This document shows positions 1 through 11,712 of a stretch of 11,712 bases of DNA, one piece after another; within the stretch, counting starts at the first letter, position 1; every line of letters begins with the position of its first letter. The notes under the pieces are model-generated. The model was not told the origin of the DNA, ran no database searches, and was given only the letters and a program-made list of their open reading frames with translations. Source of the stretch: an uncultured Alphaproteobacteria bacterium (GTDB taxonomy: Bacteria; Pseudomonadota; Alphaproteobacteria; Bin95); assembly GCA_913060845.1 (NCBI GenBank), contig CAJXVF010000023.1:1-11712 (forward strand). Reading direction: 5' to 3'. A program made the translations under genes and the position numbers.

Positions 1-42
1 CCTCTCTATTCGTCGGCAGCGTCAGATGTGTATAAGAGACAG
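1..42. other. Residual Nextera sequencing adapter with i5 index (artificial, not genomic)
   Basis: Bases 10-42 are the Nextera read-1 adapter, ending in the 19-base Tn5 mosaic end AGATGTGTATAAGAGACAG (24-42). Bases 2-9, CTCTCTAT, are an 8-base index that matches the Nextera i5 index known as S502/N502. The same adapter and index appear in reverse complement at the other end of the window. This is library-preparation DNA and should be trimmed. Genomic sequence starts at about base 43. Confidence 0.98.
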
Positions 43-5663: not shown

Positions 5664-6977
5664 CTATGCGGCCATCTGCGCCCGCCAATAAGGCACGCCT
5701 TTGCTGGCTGCATGTTGCGCGCCACGCTCCGCCAAAAGCGCCTGGGCCAACGGCTTTCGGCCTGCTTTGACGGCGGAATCGATCAGCGCCTGCGCATAAA
5801 GGTCACGCTGGGCATGGCTACCGCCAACACGGCTCCAATCTTCCATGCAGCTAAGGAACCCATCACAAGCGCGCGCATAATCTCCATTGAAATAGGCTTG
5901 CACCGCGTCCGCCAGCGGCAAGGTGGCGTCTTGGGTGAGCTTGGCACCCCACCCGTCGCCATCTGCCCGTTCAGCCAGTGTTTGCCGGTGGCGCGCAACG
6001 GCTTCGCCGCGTCCCGTGCGGTTCAATGCGGCGGCGATATGTGTATCGGTGAAGGCGAGCAATTGATCGTCCAGGATTGTTTCCGCCTGTCCCGCCATAA
6101 CCTCCCACCGGTCGCCAACATCGACGCCCGTCATCTCCAGCCGCCAAAGCAGTGCGGTTGCGTTCTGGATATCGATATATGCCGCCGAATCACCCGGATA
6201 TACAGCGTTATCGAACAGATCGAGCGCGCCTTCATAGTCACCCGAATCCCAGTGGAATAATGCCCGGTGCCACCAGATATGGCGGGCCAATGGCGCACGG
6301 TCAGCCCATGCGTCCAAAGGATAGTTGAGCCACTGAATGCCCTCTGCATGCCGACCCTGCATCTCTAGAACGTGCGCGACGGAATGAATGCCCCAAATAT
6401 CATCCGGGTTGCGCACAACAGACGCGCGGCCATGGCGCTCAGCGGCGGCATAATCGCCCGCCTCCTCGTAACCAAAGGCCAGCATGCCCTGATAGTGGCC
6501 GTAGCCTTCCAGGTCTTCTGTCCAGGCATGGCTGACGCGGAGCATCGAATCGCGAAGGTCCAGGCTTCGACCGCGCCAGAACAGGCTCTGTTGCTGCATC
6601 TGCTTCAGAATGAACAGGTCCACCGGCCATTCCGCCAGATGCGCATAGAATGCCGTAGACGCTGCCGCCAAATCATTGCCATGCAGGGCTTCCAGGCCAG
6701 CCAACCAACCTTGGCCGCGACTATCCAACCCCTTGGCCGCTGCCGCATCCATATGCGCTTGGATGACAGGCAGCATCTTCCGGGATTGCGCACCCATCAG
6801 CAGATAACCTTTGAGCAGTTGGGCCATCGCGCAGTCCGGGTCCACTGCAATCGCGGCGTCTGCATATTCTGCGGCGTCTGCGCGGAATTCGAAGAAGCGG
6901 GCAATGCACGTATTGAAGGCGATTACCGCCGCATCGCTTTCAGTATCAACCGGATATCCGCGAACGTCCTGGCGCAT
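5664..6977 (-). CDS. Tetratricopeptide-repeat protein of the TTC38-like family
   Basis: This 437-residue soluble protein is built largely of paired helices with TPR character and resembles the TTC38-like family (conserved from bacteria to man, biochemical function unknown). Characteristic stretches are RGYPVDTES (6-14), DPDCAMAQLLKGYLLM (46-61), NPDDIWGIHSVAHVLEMQGR (190-209) and ARHIWWHRALFHWDSGDY (231-248). The conserved histidines H198, H202, H237 and H242 and E205 point to more than a passive scaffold, but no catalytic role is established. No signal peptide or membrane segment is seen. The start is the ATG at 6977, preceded by AAGGA 7 bases upstream. The reading frame stays open back to about 7397, but that part overlaps another gene in a different frame and has no similarity to the family. 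It starts 19 bases after the stop of the upstream membrane protein gene. Confidence 0.85.
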   Translation of the reverse strand: MRQDVRGYPVDTESDAAVIAFNTCIARFFEFRADAAEYADAAIAVDPDCAMAQLLKGYLLMGAQSRKMLPVIQAHMDAAAAKGLDSRGQGWLAGLEALHGNDLAAASTAFYAHLAEWPVDLFILKQMQQQSLFWRGRSLDLRDSMLRVSHAWTEDLEGYGHYQGMLAFGYEEAGDYAAAERHGRASVVRNPDDIWGIHSVAHVLEMQGRHAEGIQWLNYPLDAWADRAPLARHIWWHRALFHWDSGDYEGALDLFDNAVYPGDSAAYIDIQNATALLWRLEMTGVDVGDRWEVMAGQAETILDDQLLAFTDTHIAAALNRTGRGEAVARHRQTLAERADGDGWGAKLTQDATLPLADAVQAYFNGDYARACDGFLSCMEDWSRVGGSHAQRDLYAQALIDSAVKAGRKPLAQALLAERGAQHAASKGVPYWRAQMAA

Positions 6978-7529: not shown

Positions 7530-7982
7530 ATGGCTGGACTGTATTTTGAAGACTTCAAAGAAGGCACAGTTTTCAAGCATGACCTGACCCGCACGGTCAC
7601 CGAGATGGACAACGTGATGTTCTGCGCGTTGACCCATAACCCGCAGCCGCTGCATCTGGATGAAGAATTCGGCAAGCAGAGCGAGCATGGCGCGCGGCTG
7701 GTGAATTCATTGTTCACGCTTGGGCTGGTTATTGGTGTGTCCGTCGGCGACACAACACTTGGCACCACGGTTGGTAATCTTGGCATGACCGATTGCGCAT
7801 TCCGCAACCCGGTATTCCACGGCGATACGATTCGTTCGGAAACCACGATTTTGGAAAAGCGCGAATCCAAATCCCGCCCAACCCAGGGCATCGTCACGTT
7901 TGAGCATCGCGGCATCAATCAGCACGGCAAAGAAGTCGCCTATTGCAAGCGCATGGGCCTGATGATGAAGCGCCCCGTTTAA
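7530..7982 (+). CDS. MaoC-family (hot-dog fold) acyl-CoA dehydratase/hydratase
   Basis: This 150-residue protein is a single hot-dog domain of the MaoC/R-specific hydratase family, which adds water to enoyl-CoA thioesters. The opening YFEDFKEGTVF (5-15) and the hydratase segment ALTHNPQPLHLD (33-44) are diagnostic. In classical R-hydratases the catalytic dyad is Asp and His five residues apart. Here the His is H42 but the Asp position is N37. I recall similar NPQPLH segments in other MaoC-like proteins, so this may be a subfamily trait and not damage. It is a standard length for a one-domain hydratase. The start is supported by the GGAGG site. It is the first gene of a four-gene operon, 21 bases before a CitE-like lyase. 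That pairing suggests hydration of an enoyl-CoA to a 3-hydroxyacyl-CoA that the lyase then cleaves, or the reverse. Confidence 0.88.
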   Translation: MAGLYFEDFKEGTVFKHDLTRTVTEMDNVMFCALTHNPQPLHLDEEFGKQSEHGARLVNSLFTLGLVIGVSVGDTTLGTTVGNLGMTDCAFRNPVFHGDTIRSETTILEKRESKSRPTQGIVTFEHRGINQHGKEVAYCKRMGLMMKRPV

Positions 7983-8003: not shown

Positions 8004-8891
8004 ATGGACCCGCTCCGCTGCTTCCTGTTTGTGCCCGCTGATAGCGAGCGCAAATACCAGAAAGCGTCTGGCACCGCCGCCGACGCCCTTATTCTGGATC
8101 TCGAAGATTCAGTCAATCAAGACAACCTGCCCCAAGCCCGCCAGATGGCGCATGATTACCTTCTGCAAAGCCGAGACAAGCTGCGACCGCAGTCACTTTG
8201 GGTGCGCATCAACCCGCTCGACACCGATTTGAGCCTGGTTGATCTGGCAGCCGTTATGGGCGGGTCGCCGGATGGAATTATTCTGCCGAAGACGTTTTCC
8301 GCTGCAGAGGCGATCAAGCTTGATCACATGCTCTCTGCCTTGGAAGCACGGGAGAATATTCAGGTTGGCCGCACCAAAATTCTGGTGGTCGCGACAGAAA
8401 CTGCACGCTCCCTCTTCACGATGGATAGCTTCGTTGGTGCCAGTGACCGCATTTACGGCATGACCTGGGGTGCGGAGGACCTATCTGCTGCACTTGGCGC
8501 ATTCACGAACCAAATGGCCGACGGCGGTTATGAGGACGTATACCGCCTCGCCCGCTCCCTCTGCCTCGCCGCATGCAAAGCGGCTGAGACGGAACCGGTC
8601 GATTCGGTCTACCCAAACTTCCGGGATTTGGACGGCCTATTCAAAGAAGCCCTGCAAGGCCGCAAGACCGGGTTCACCGGCAAGGTCGCGATCCATCCAG
8701 ACCAAGTCGATGTGATCAACAAGGCTTTCGCGCCGACAGAGGATGAAATCGCCTTTGCACACCGCGTGATTGGCGCGTTCAAGGATAAGGGCGGGTCCGG
8801 TACCGTTGGAATGGATGGCAAAATGCTAGACATGCCGCACTTGAAGCAGGCTCGCACCGTGCTGACCATGGCGGAGCGCAACAATGCCTGA
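8004..8891 (+). CDS. CoA-ester lyase, HpcH/HpaI/CitE family (malyl-CoA lyase-like)
   Basis: The 295-residue protein is a TIM-barrel CitE/HpcH-type enzyme. Relatives include citrate lyase beta subunit, malyl-CoA and beta-methylmalyl-CoA lyases and (3S)-malyl-CoA thioesterase. Visible landmarks are RCFLFVPADSERK (5-17), the strand LILDLEDSV (29-37), the substrate Arg in WVRIN (66-70), the metal ligand E132 in ATETARSL, D159 in WGAEDLS, and GKVAIHPDQV near 230. The C-terminal GKMLDMPHLKQA is typical of stand-alone lyases. Together these predict a Mg-dependent retro-Claisen or aldol-type cleavage of a 3-hydroxyacyl-CoA, or its hydrolysis. A ribosome site AAAGGAA lies 9 bases before the ATG. The stop overlaps the next gene's start by 8 bases (ATGCCTGA). 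The exact substrate cannot be told from sequence. Confidence 0.9.
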   Translation: MDPLRCFLFVPADSERKYQKASGTAADALILDLEDSVNQDNLPQARQMAHDYLLQSRDKLRPQSLWVRINPLDTDLSLVDLAAVMGGSPDGIILPKTFSAAEAIKLDHMLSALEARENIQVGRTKILVVATETARSLFTMDSFVGASDRIYGMTWGAEDLSAALGAFTNQMADGGYEDVYRLARSLCLAACKAAETEPVDSVYPNFRDLDGLFKEALQGRKTGFTGKVAIHPDQVDVINKAFAPTEDEIAFAHRVIGAFKDKGGSGTVGMDGKMLDMPHLKQARTVLTMAERNNA

Positions 8892-9816
8892 AGCCATCCC
8901 CTTCGACGCCACCCGGCATTGGACGAAAGAACTGCCCAACGGCACGGTCGTTAAACTCCGTGAGTTTGATTTCGCTGGACCGTTTGCTGGGCGCGATCCG
9001 GCGTCGAAGATGGATGGGCCGCAGTGTTTCCGGGTAGAGCAACCGCCAGGATCCGTCGTTGAGACGCATTTCCATGTGGCGGATGAATTCCAGTTGATCG
9101 CGCTCGGCGGCGGGCGCTTGGGGCGGCACGGACTGATGCCGCTCTCCGTCCACTATTCCGGCGCTTACACGCCCTATGGCCCGATCGTGGCGGACGCGAC
9201 TGATGGTGTCGTTTATTTCACCTTGCGGCCAAGGCGGGATGCGGGCGCACTGTTCTTGCCAGCGGATCGGGAGAGGATGAAACCGGCGGCCAAGCGCTTC
9301 TTTATGGCGGAGCAAGATGAGGGCGTGATTGCGTCCTCCGCACTCGCCAACTTGGAAGCGCCCAGCCTGGTTTCCGCCTATGGGCCGGATGTGACGGGTG
9401 CTGCTGCATGGCGCGCAACGCTCGGACCCGGTCAGCGTCTCACGCCACCAAAACCTGCGGGCGACGGATATTTCATCGTGGTCGCAGAAGGCGGATGGGA
9501 ACATGGCGGCTCGATACTGCCGCAATGGTCCTGCGCGTTCGCGGGTCAAGGTGAAACACCGCCAGTTCTGTTAGCCGGACCAGATGGCCTCGACGCCATC
9601 ATCCTCCAGTTCCCAGAACATGCGAGCACAATAGAGAAAGCCTCTCCAAACGGCGCTGACGCACACGAATGCCCGCTCTGCGGCTTCGTTTATGACGCAG
9701 CGGCAGGCCTGGAAGAGGACGGCATACCAGTCGGTACGGCGTTCGCTGACTTGCCAAACGATTGGACCTGCCCGAACTGTGACGCAGCCAAAACCGAATT
9801 TGAGGCGCTCTCATAA
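8884..9816 (+). CDS. Bicupin protein with C-terminal rubredoxin domain
   Basis: The 310-residue protein is a fusion. The first cupin-like domain (about 45-120) has a metal-site motif ETHFHVADEFQ with H62, H64 and E68, and a likely fourth ligand H90 in LSVHYSG. This is the usual 3-His/1-Glu cupin arrangement, able to hold Fe, Mn or Ni. A second cupin-like stretch (about 170-245) keeps the beta pattern but has no matching ligand set. Residues 262-308 are a rubredoxin domain: CPLCGFVYD (263-271), FADLPNDW (287-294) and CPNC (296-299), with all four Fe ligands C263, C266, C296 and C299. The likely role is redox or oxygenase chemistry at the cupin metal with an attached Fe(Cys)4 site. The reaction is unknown. 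The start ATG overlaps the lyase stop by 8 bases, with GGAG before it. The stop is one base before the amidohydrolase ATG. The domain calls are firm, especially rubredoxin. Confidence 0.85.
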   Translation: MPEAIPFDATRHWTKELPNGTVVKLREFDFAGPFAGRDPASKMDGPQCFRVEQPPGSVVETHFHVADEFQLIALGGGRLGRHGLMPLSVHYSGAYTPYGPIVADATDGVVYFTLRPRRDAGALFLPADRERMKPAAKRFFMAEQDEGVIASSALANLEAPSLVSAYGPDVTGAAAWRATLGPGQRLTPPKPAGDGYFIVVAEGGWEHGGSILPQWSCAFAGQGETPPVLLAGPDGLDAIILQFPEHASTIEKASPNGADAHECPLCGFVYDAAAGLEEDGIPVGTAFADLPNDWTCPNCDAAKTEFEALS

Positions 9817-9817
9817 T

Positions 9818-10687
9818 ATGACCGATTATACGTTTGACGGCCCCGAGCCGGACTTTTCACCAAAGCCCGCCCGGTTCACGCCGCCGCCAGGCTCGGTCGA
9901 TTGCCATTGCCATGTCTTCGGCCCGTTCGATCAGTTCCCCTATGCAGAAGATCGCAGCTACACGCCGCCTGCATCTGTGTTGGCGGATTATCAGGCGATG
10001 CTTGCGGCGACAGGGTTAGAACGCTCCGTCATGGTGCAGCCAAGCGTCTACGGGTTCGATAACCGCGCCAGCTTAGATGCCATGCGCAGAATGGGCGACA
10101 AGATGCGCGGCGTGATGGTCGTGCCGAGCGACGTGACCGATGCTGTCCTGCAGGACATGCATGACGCCGGTGCGCGCGGTCTCCGCTTCAACGTCGATCT
10201 GAAAGGCGGCGTTGGGTTTACTGACTTAGACACACTCACGGCGCGGATCGCGCCTTTGGGGTGGCATATACAGGTGTTCGCGAAACCATCAACTTTCCTG
10301 GAAGCAGCGCACCACCTGGAAGCCCTGCCCTGTGATGTCGTGATCGACCATATGGGCCATGTGCCAGCAGCGGATGGCGTGCATGACTTGGCGTTCCAGC
10401 GGCTGTTAGCAATGCTCAGAGACGGTCGGACTTGGGTCAAAATATCCGGTACCTATCGGATATCGGCTGAAGCGCCGCCCTATTACGACGCACTGCCCTT
10501 GGCCCGCGCGCTGATCGCTGAAGCGCCAGACAAATGCGTATTCGGAACGGATTGGCCACACCCTAACTTCACCGGCCCGATGCCGAACGACAGCGCGCTC
10601 CTGAACTTCCTGGACGACGCCAGCCCGGACGTTGAAACCCGCGACCGGATTCTACTGGATAATCCGGTGAAACTTTACGGGTTTTAG
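9818..10687 (+). CDS. Amidohydrolase-2 family hydrolase, LigI-like (2-pyrone-4,6-dicarboxylate hydrolase group)
   Basis: This 289-residue TIM-barrel hydrolase resembles LigI, which opens the lactone 2-pyrone-4,6-dicarboxylate, and related lactonases such as 4-sulfomuconolactone hydrolase. Landmarks are VDCHCHVFGP with H30 and H32 (27-36), GLRFN (121-125), WHIQVF with H150, VIDHMG with D177 and H178, FGTDWPHPN with D245 and H248, and a NPVKLYGF end. The HxH, His and Asp set is that of the superfamily, some members of which act without a bound metal. The start is the ATG at 9818, one base after the preceding stop, so translation is probably coupled. A longer in-frame reading from 9692 would overlap the rubredoxin-coding part and is rejected. 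It is the last gene of the operon. Its substrate is presumably a lactone or cyclic ester made upstream; LigI activity itself is not proven. Confidence 0.88.
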   Translation: MTDYTFDGPEPDFSPKPARFTPPPGSVDCHCHVFGPFDQFPYAEDRSYTPPASVLADYQAMLAATGLERSVMVQPSVYGFDNRASLDAMRRMGDKMRGVMVVPSDVTDAVLQDMHDAGARGLRFNVDLKGGVGFTDLDTLTARIAPLGWHIQVFAKPSTFLEAAHHLEALPCDVVIDHMGHVPAADGVHDLAFQRLLAMLRDGRTWVKISGTYRISAEAPPYYDALPLARALIAEAPDKCVFGTDWPHPNFTGPMPNDSALLNFLDDASPDVETRDRILLDNPVKLYGF

Positions 10688-11664: not shown

Positions 11665-11712
11665 CTGTCTCTTATACACATCTGACGCTGCCGACGAATA
11701 GAGAGGTGTAGA
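11665..11712. other. Residual Nextera sequencing adapter with i5 index and P5 end (artificial)
   Basis: Starting at 11665, CTGTCTCTTATACACATCT is the reverse complement of the Tn5 mosaic end. It is followed by the rest of the adapter to 11697, then the index ATAGAGAG (11698-11705) and GTGTAGA, the start of the P5 flow-cell sequence. It mirrors the left end, including the same index, so genomic DNA stops at 11664. Confidence 0.98.

Follow-up and report, generated by a model that had tools for sequence, protein, structure and literature searches.

A conserved bicupin–rubredoxin fusion protein in proteobacteria, a candidate rubredoxin-coupled cupin oxygenase

The bacterial form of 3-hydroxyanthranilate 3,4-dioxygenase is a cupin that carries a rubredoxin-like Fe(Cys)4 site, and desulfoferrodoxin pairs a rubredoxin-type centre with a mononuclear iron in one chain. 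A further precedent comes from alkane hydroxylation. AlkB is a membrane diiron enzyme, and AlkB-Rd carries a C-terminal rubredoxin on an oxygenase whose relatives use a separate rubredoxin and reductase; the occurrence of such fusions next to unfused forms with separate partners is a recognised pattern in AlkB (PMC8918992). Here, we describe a protein that joins a predicted bicupin to a complete rubredoxin, encoded in an 11,712-nucleotide stretch of DNA (the window) from an uncultured Alphaproteobacteria bacterium (contig CAJXVF010000023.1). A preliminary description knew of no characterised enzyme with this layout, and our literature searches agree with it: no description of a cupin-rubredoxin fusion was found in the open-licence literature, where 14 papers contain both 'rubredoxin' and 'cupin' (among them PMC8503633, PMC5144071, and PMC12431658).

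The fusion gene is a single frame at 8884..9816 on the forward strand, with an ATG start, and encodes a bicupin-rubredoxin protein of 310 amino acids, as identified by the ORF, Pfam, an AlphaFold2 model and alignment. Cupin domain 1 (residues ~40-125; 9001..9258, +) contains H62, H64, E68, H90 and an invariant Y98 and is defined by the model, conservation and cupin motif 1. Cupin domain 2 (residues ~160-247; 9361..9624, +), without a histidine metal motif, is defined by an hhalign repeat and the model. The rubredoxin domain (residues 261-306; 9664..9801, +) with C263, C266, C296 and C299 is matched by Pfam PF00301 Rubredoxin over 261-306 with an E-value of 1.6e-18 and 66.9 bits against a cut-off of 23, and 2v3b 'rubredoxin 2' is its best match among solved chains. 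The cupin residues H62, H64, E68 and H90 and the four cysteines are all at the positions given in the preliminary description, and the Pfam domain search that it proposed confirmed the rubredoxin and left the cupin part without a Pfam family.

Searching proteins at E 1e-3 gave 307 relatives, and 24 of the best 120 carry a rubredoxin; a contig scan of genomes gave at least 483 confirmed stretches, of which 79 loci were kept. Of the 339 cupin rows gathered, 278 are distinct; 98 of these, the window's among them, are fused and 180 are unfused, and a few incomplete frames show as gaps in the 278-row alignment. Both CxxC pairs, that is, all four rubredoxin cysteines, are kept in every one of the 98 distinct fused rows. 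A misassembly or frameshift was considered as the source of the fusion and ruled out, because the identical architecture is seen in other assemblies: the fused protein of L002, from another assembly, is 94% identical to the window protein, and 98 distinct fused sequences exist. The two-cupin plus rubredoxin architecture is genuine and conserved, and the union of a bicupin with a complete rubredoxin, first proposed from the letters of the DNA, is borne out by PF00301, the AlphaFold2 model, the hhalign repeat and the fused sequences.

Among 385 genomes of the window's class, a cupin match was found in 18 and the fusion in three (G000, G001, and G003, all of the window's genus). Of 200 Burkholderiales genomes 170 were matched, by the rubredoxin only in most of the matches listed; matches spanning cupin and rubredoxin were found in at least seven genomes, again among the matches listed. 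One betaproteobacterial assembly (CANJQI, RH-23may17-68) has 14 fused copies among the fetched loci, and in this genome (G040) the rubredoxin was matched 21 times, with 15 of these matches falling in open frames 304-374 residues long. Four of the CANJQI fused genes stand in tandem on one contig (L005:8001-11866). Family members, where named, are annotated as 'rubredoxin' or 'hypothetical protein', and some are located on plasmids of bacteria from herbicide-contaminated soil. Several metagenome-assembled genome records titled Bordetella parapertussis (L017, L023, L024, L029, L044 and others) look, judged by isolate names alone, like environmental betaproteobacteria with doubtful names.

In the cupin tree, built from 103 rows (262 before thinning), the fused proteins fall into two groups, that of the window protein and a betaproteobacterial one. 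Parsimony requires two changes for the fusion state, yet two independent fusion events were not retained as the explanation: in an AU test on 77 rows (five of them added to a selection from the 103), a single fused clade passes with p 0.715, the constrained tree being slightly better. A single origin of the fusion is the simpler view of these sequences.

The AlphaFold2 model of the window protein has a pLDDT of 94.4 and a pTM of 0.91, and its lowest-confidence stretch is formed by the linker blocks 241-260 (pLDDT 76-80); a linker of about 20 residues joins bicupin and rubredoxin. Because this pTM is above the level normally allowed by a freely floating rubredoxin, which makes up 17% of the residues, the fused rubredoxin is probably docked. 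The best solved-structure matches of the model are two-domain cupin proteins, and residues 1-249 match the solved cupins ChrR (3o14), 2qdr, BacB, oxalate decarboxylase, AerE and salicylate dioxygenase. Cupin domains 1 and 2 are recognisable as repeats of each other (hhalign probability 74%, E 2.7e-5), and the label 'bicupin' is right because the model matches two-domain cupins and both barrels repeat one another. The confident model and the matches to solved cupins together identify a beta-barrel cupin fold. Pfam, listed to E-values up to 1, gave no cupin family for the window protein, and no Pfam or NCBIfam cupin family was over its cut-off in the window protein, in six unfused relatives or in the fused ones scanned with them (four and three proteins in two scans); weak, below-cut-off Cupin_2 matches appeared in three of the six unfused relatives in the Pfam scan. 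A profile of 55 unfused members searched against solved sequences returned only two non-significant matches (E 1.1 and 1.8).

Cupin motif 1 is G(X)5HXH(X)3-4E(X)6G and motif 2 is G(X)5PXG(X)2H(X)3N. Motif 1 is present in the window protein at residues 56-75, and 97 of the 98 fused rows and 171 of the 180 unfused ones have the looser form H.H.{3}[EQ].{6}G. Motif 2, the source of the third histidine, is missing from the window protein and from all 98 fused and all 180 unfused rows; since many accepted cupins deviate from motif 2, its absence concerns the metal site and not the fold. His62 and His64 are invariant in all rows with letters there (97 fused, 178 unfused), as are Tyr98, Gly99 and Pro100 (98 fused, 178 unfused). 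Position 68 is Gln in 75 and Glu in 23 of the 98 fused rows, and Gln in 163, Glu in 10 and Met in 5 of the 180 unfused rows; as some cupin enzymes use Gln as a metal ligand, Gln68 does not preclude metal binding. All 98 fused rows have His at position 90; of the 180 unfused rows, 91 have His and 87 have Gln there (thinned at 70% identity, His in 45/45 fused, and 63 His and 23 Gln among 88 unfused). His82 is found in 96 of 98 fused rows.

The preliminary description had claimed an intact 3-His/1-Glu site. Its residues are indeed present, with two of the histidines invariant and His90 in every fused row, but 'intact' is too strong, and a standard site is contradicted by the prevalence of Gln at position 68 in both sets and by the absence of motif 2. 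The order of strands in the model, together with the domain 2 repeat, suggests that Tyr98 may lie close to where the third histidine would be and that His90 would lie one strand earlier, facing the site or in the second shell. A weak oxalate-decarboxylase alignment would place motif 2 elsewhere than Tyr98, an hhalign comparison with seven Cupin_2 domains aligned only the motif-1 region, and the model of a 98-residue fragment intended for mapping of the site was poor (pLDDT 68.5). A cupin subgroup with Met68 and Gln90 comprises L219, L220, L166 and L230, and in L230 a rubredoxin gene is located directly upstream.

In a rival reading, the rubredoxin would have a structural or redox-sensing role on a cupin without redox activity, either an enzyme such as an isomerase or lyase or a binding protein. 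Besides the missing motif 2 and its histidine, this reading has on its side that many bicupins have functions other than oxygenation, that BacB and AerE rank among the nearest folds, and that 180 of the 278 family rows have no rubredoxin; a merely appended domain nonetheless sits poorly with a four-cysteine rubredoxin that is strict in 98/98 fused rows and with the rubredoxin-cupin gene pairs in Agrobacterium and G753, and we regard this reading as unlikely.

The fusion gene belongs to a tightly packed set of genes on one strand. A MaoC-like (R)-enoyl-CoA hydratase gene (7530..7982, +; Pfam, NCBIfam and solved-structure match), probably of the same operon, is followed by an HpcH/HpaI (CitE-like) acyl-CoA lyase gene (8004..8891, +), which overlaps the start of the fusion by eight bases (8884-8891), and an amidohydrolase_2 gene (9818..10687, +) lies one base downstream of the fusion. 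The amidohydrolase_2 protein is most like 2-pyrone-4,6-dicarboxylate hydrolase (LigI, a lactone hydrolase, the closest) and 4-sulfomuconolactone hydrolase, and the MaoC and CitE proteins resemble the itaconate enzymes RipB and RipC with matches far below the cut-offs. Composed of a hydratase, a lyase and a LigI-like hydrolase, the operon looks catabolic. The MaoC gene is upstream of the fusion in all five genomes of the genus examined (the window's, L002, L094, L095, and L096), CitE precedes the fusion in three and the amidohydrolase follows it in two; the contig of G004 (L095) ends soon after the fusion, so the absence of the amidohydrolase there is uninformative. Divergent from this operon and upstream of it is a gene with TPR-like repeats (5664-6977, −; below the Pfam cut-offs), which is kept in L002, L003 and L004. 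The sequence AGATGTGTATAAGAGACAG, a Nextera transposon adapter, occurs exactly at both contig ends (window 24-42, +, and 11665-11683, −); the ends are untrimmed, and an MFS gene at the right end of the window runs into adapter sequence.

The betaproteobacterial copies, judged from representatives, have other neighbours, namely TctC receptors, MmgE/PrpD, TauD, an FMN dehydrogenase and a 3-hydroxyacyl-CoA dehydrogenase. TctC receptor genes occur in the 6-kb surroundings of 41 of the 66 fused cupins and of 35 of the 67 unfused ones, a proximity that says little because these genes are very common in such betaproteobacteria. Neighbours vary widely among fused copies; as their types are mostly catabolic yet varied, the family looks catabolic and not bound to one pathway. 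Two small genes (83 and 86 amino acids; no Pfam match at E 0.001) are found upstream of the fused gene at L019:7277-7819, and this cluster recurs in L036, L042 and L060, standing directly before the fused gene in three of the four loci, L019 included. In Variovorax SRS16 (L223:11265-12820), genes annotated as 3-hydroxyanthranilate 3,4-dioxygenase and amidohydrolase lie about 4 kb from an unfused family cupin.

The gene context bears on a desulfoferrodoxin-like reading, in which the cupin iron would reduce superoxide or peroxide with rubredoxin electrons. The pairing of centres in desulfoferrodoxin itself counts for such a reactive-oxygen reductase, but the annotated neighbours are mostly catabolic or transport genes (TctC, MmgE/PrpD, MaoC, CitE, CoA enzymes) and not stress genes, fused copies are greatly multiplied in one betaproteobacterial genome, and none of the desulfoferrodoxin/superoxide reductase Pfam families matches the window protein at E-values up to 1, all of which makes this reading very improbable.

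Gene neighbours of a few unfused relatives point to partners of the cupin. On the Agrobacterium tumefaciens plasmid pAtH25_79a, genes for a rubredoxin, an FAD-dependent oxidoreductase and an unfused cupin are consecutive on one strand; by Pfam, they are Rubredoxin, Pyr_redox_2 plus Reductase_C, and a cupin without a match. The flavoprotein has 3fg2 'putative rubredoxin reductase' as its best solved match (1.5e-63), followed by putidaredoxin reductase, and the cupin is 31% identical to the window protein over 208 columns. In G753 (L230), a gap of 40 bases separates a rubredoxin gene (end at 300) from an unfused cupin gene on the same strand (start at 341). The fused rubredoxin is identical at 22 of 48 aligned positions to the Agrobacterium rubredoxin and at 26 of 46 to that of G753. 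Such neighbours suggest rubredoxin as the electron donor of the cupin. The G753 and Caballeronia cupins carry Met68 and Gln90, so the rubredoxin link is not tied to one ligand set. Unfused cupins close to that of G753 have no rubredoxin nearby; in the family of G753, a cupin match occurs in 5 of 11 genomes, and four of five further cupin places, on longer loci, have no rubredoxin, the fifth contig (3.3 kb) being below the 5 kb limit of the scan.

Neighbours were counted for a deduplicated set of 133 cupins in loci of at least 5 kb, with contig ends shortening some flanks. A separate rubredoxin is present within 6 kb of 4/67 unfused and 0/66 fused cupins, other fused copies uncounted (p 0.12), against a rough chance expectation of 0.4 in about 67 loci that assumes two rubredoxin genes per 4 Mb; two of the four are operon-like, and the other two lie 3.2 and 5.6 kb off on the opposite strand. 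An oxygenase-type reductase (three query proteins) is present within 6 kb in 7/67 unfused and 0/66 fused loci, and an NADH:flavin oxidoreductase (the fourth query) in 2/67 and 1/66. Either a rubredoxin or an oxygenase-type reductase is found within this distance in 8/67 unfused versus 0/66 fused loci (Fisher p 0.006, an optimistic value because the reductase queries were chosen after the annotated neighbours had been seen). By these counts it looks as if the fusions dispense with a separate rubredoxin or reductase partner. At the remaining 59 of 67 unfused loci, no rubredoxin and none of the three kinds of reductase was found within 6 kb, some loci ending sooner at contig ends, so much of the family may not need them.

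The preliminary description had suggested a self-sufficient oxygenase. The idea of an oxygenase with an electron supply gains independent support from Agrobacterium and G753, whose unfused cupin genes come after a rubredoxin gene, in Agrobacterium with the rubredoxin-reductase-like gene between the two, but 'self-sufficient' goes too far, since the fusion contains no reductase domain and none of the three kinds of reductase was found within 6 kb of the 66 fused copies. In the window's genome (83% complete), the fused domain is the sole PF00301 match, and in G001-G004 (the window's genus, 90-99% complete) it is the sole rubredoxin; no Agrobacterium-type reductase in G001-G004 reached E 1e-20, and G000 has one, on a contig other than that of the fusion. 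The PF18113 reductase with a rubredoxin-binding domain is found in two of ten fusion genomes (G040 and G043, which have fused copies and also shorter frames with a rubredoxin) and was not found in G000-G004, G041, G042 and G044. In the window's genus, the fused rubredoxin probably receives its electrons from another kind of flavoprotein, if it is reduced at all; otherwise, it has another purpose.

One such purpose is the strongest rival, although rather improbable: the rubredoxin iron would be a reservoir for refilling or re-reducing the iron site of an ordinary cupin dioxygenase, with no electrons supplied per turnover. This role has reportedly been proposed by Liu et al. for the rubredoxin-type iron of bacterial 3-hydroxyanthranilate dioxygenase. 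It would account for the failure to find a second rubredoxin or a reductase of the kinds searched in G001-G004 and for the absence of a rubredoxin neighbour from most unfused relatives, and the neighbouring LigI-like lactone hydrolase fits ring-cleavage chemistry; the separate rubredoxin and rubredoxin-reductase-like flavoprotein of Agrobacterium, however, suit electron transfer better than metal storage, and the fused domain is a full rubredoxin with 2v3b as its best solved match. Electrons might also flow outward, the cupin oxidising its substrate like a dehydrogenase and the rubredoxin removing the electrons to a flavoprotein and the respiratory chain. Rubredoxins operate in both directions, and for the outward direction the missing rubredoxin-reductase-type protein in G001-G004 is no argument against; such a sink is nevertheless quite improbable, as no respiratory or ETF-type partner was noticed among the annotated neighbours, and we know of no cupin that works as an electron source via rubredoxin.

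The reading that we prefer, with a probability of about 0.43, is that of a rubredoxin-coupled cupin oxygenase, a soluble catabolic enzyme fed by its rubredoxin. A mononuclear metal, probably iron, would be bound in the first cupin barrel by His62, His64 and neighbouring residues (Glu/Gln68, His90 and/or Tyr98), and would activate O2 on a small carboxylate or an intermediate of an acyl-CoA pathway. The C-terminal rubredoxin would hand single electrons to the cupin metal, having received them from a separate, probably shared flavoprotein reductase. The metal identity, the direction of electron flow and the O2 chemistry we infer. Against this oxygenase reading stands that, to our knowledge, cupin dioxygenases use O2 without outside electrons. 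A bolder version, which we hold as tentative and somewhat doubtful, is a new O2-activating class, a bicupin with an unusual His2-Gln/Glu(-His/-Tyr) site performing reductive, monooxygenase-type chemistry with rubredoxin electrons. If true, the class would exist as a two-gene or three-gene rubredoxin system, with or without an FAD reductase, and as a one-chain fusion that has multiplied in one betaproteobacterial genome to at least 14 copies, perhaps with a different carboxylate as the substrate of each. A rubredoxin-bearing cupin family would extend the cupin repertoire to electron-driven oxygenation, or alternatively would show an iron reservoir or repair site evolving again next to a cupin iron, and it would give a function to a family without a Pfam model.

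Comparison with the known systems places the window protein among analogues. The preliminary description had named 3-hydroxyanthranilate 3,4-dioxygenase and desulfoferrodoxin as nearest precedents, and both hold as analogies, not as relatives, for neither family is among the Pfam matches (that of the dioxygenase gave no match in the window protein at E-values up to 1). Desulfoferrodoxin/superoxide reductase differs in that the context in the window is catabolic and not one of stress. ACMSD is an amidohydrolase_2 family enzyme. The dioxygenase is alike in combining, within a single chain, a cupin metal site with an iron site of four cysteines (here predicted), and its pathway continues with ACMSD, comparable to the amidohydrolase_2 gene after the fusion here. 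Unlike the dioxygenase, the window protein consists of a bicupin and a complete rubredoxin connected by the linker, and unlike in its pathway, the hydrolase adjoining the fusion resembles LigI. The solved cupins ChrR (3o14), BacB, AerE, salicylate 1,2-dioxygenase and YxaG have 10-18% identity to the window protein, which compared with them is without the canonical second-motif histidine, and no rubredoxin is named in their entries. No AlkB membrane diiron hydroxylase domain was matched in the window protein by Pfam or NCBIfam, and AlkB 8f6t matches it through the rubredoxin only; the rubredoxin-fused alkane hydroxylases share a similar arrangement with the fusion described here, built in this case on an unrelated scaffold, the predicted bicupin.
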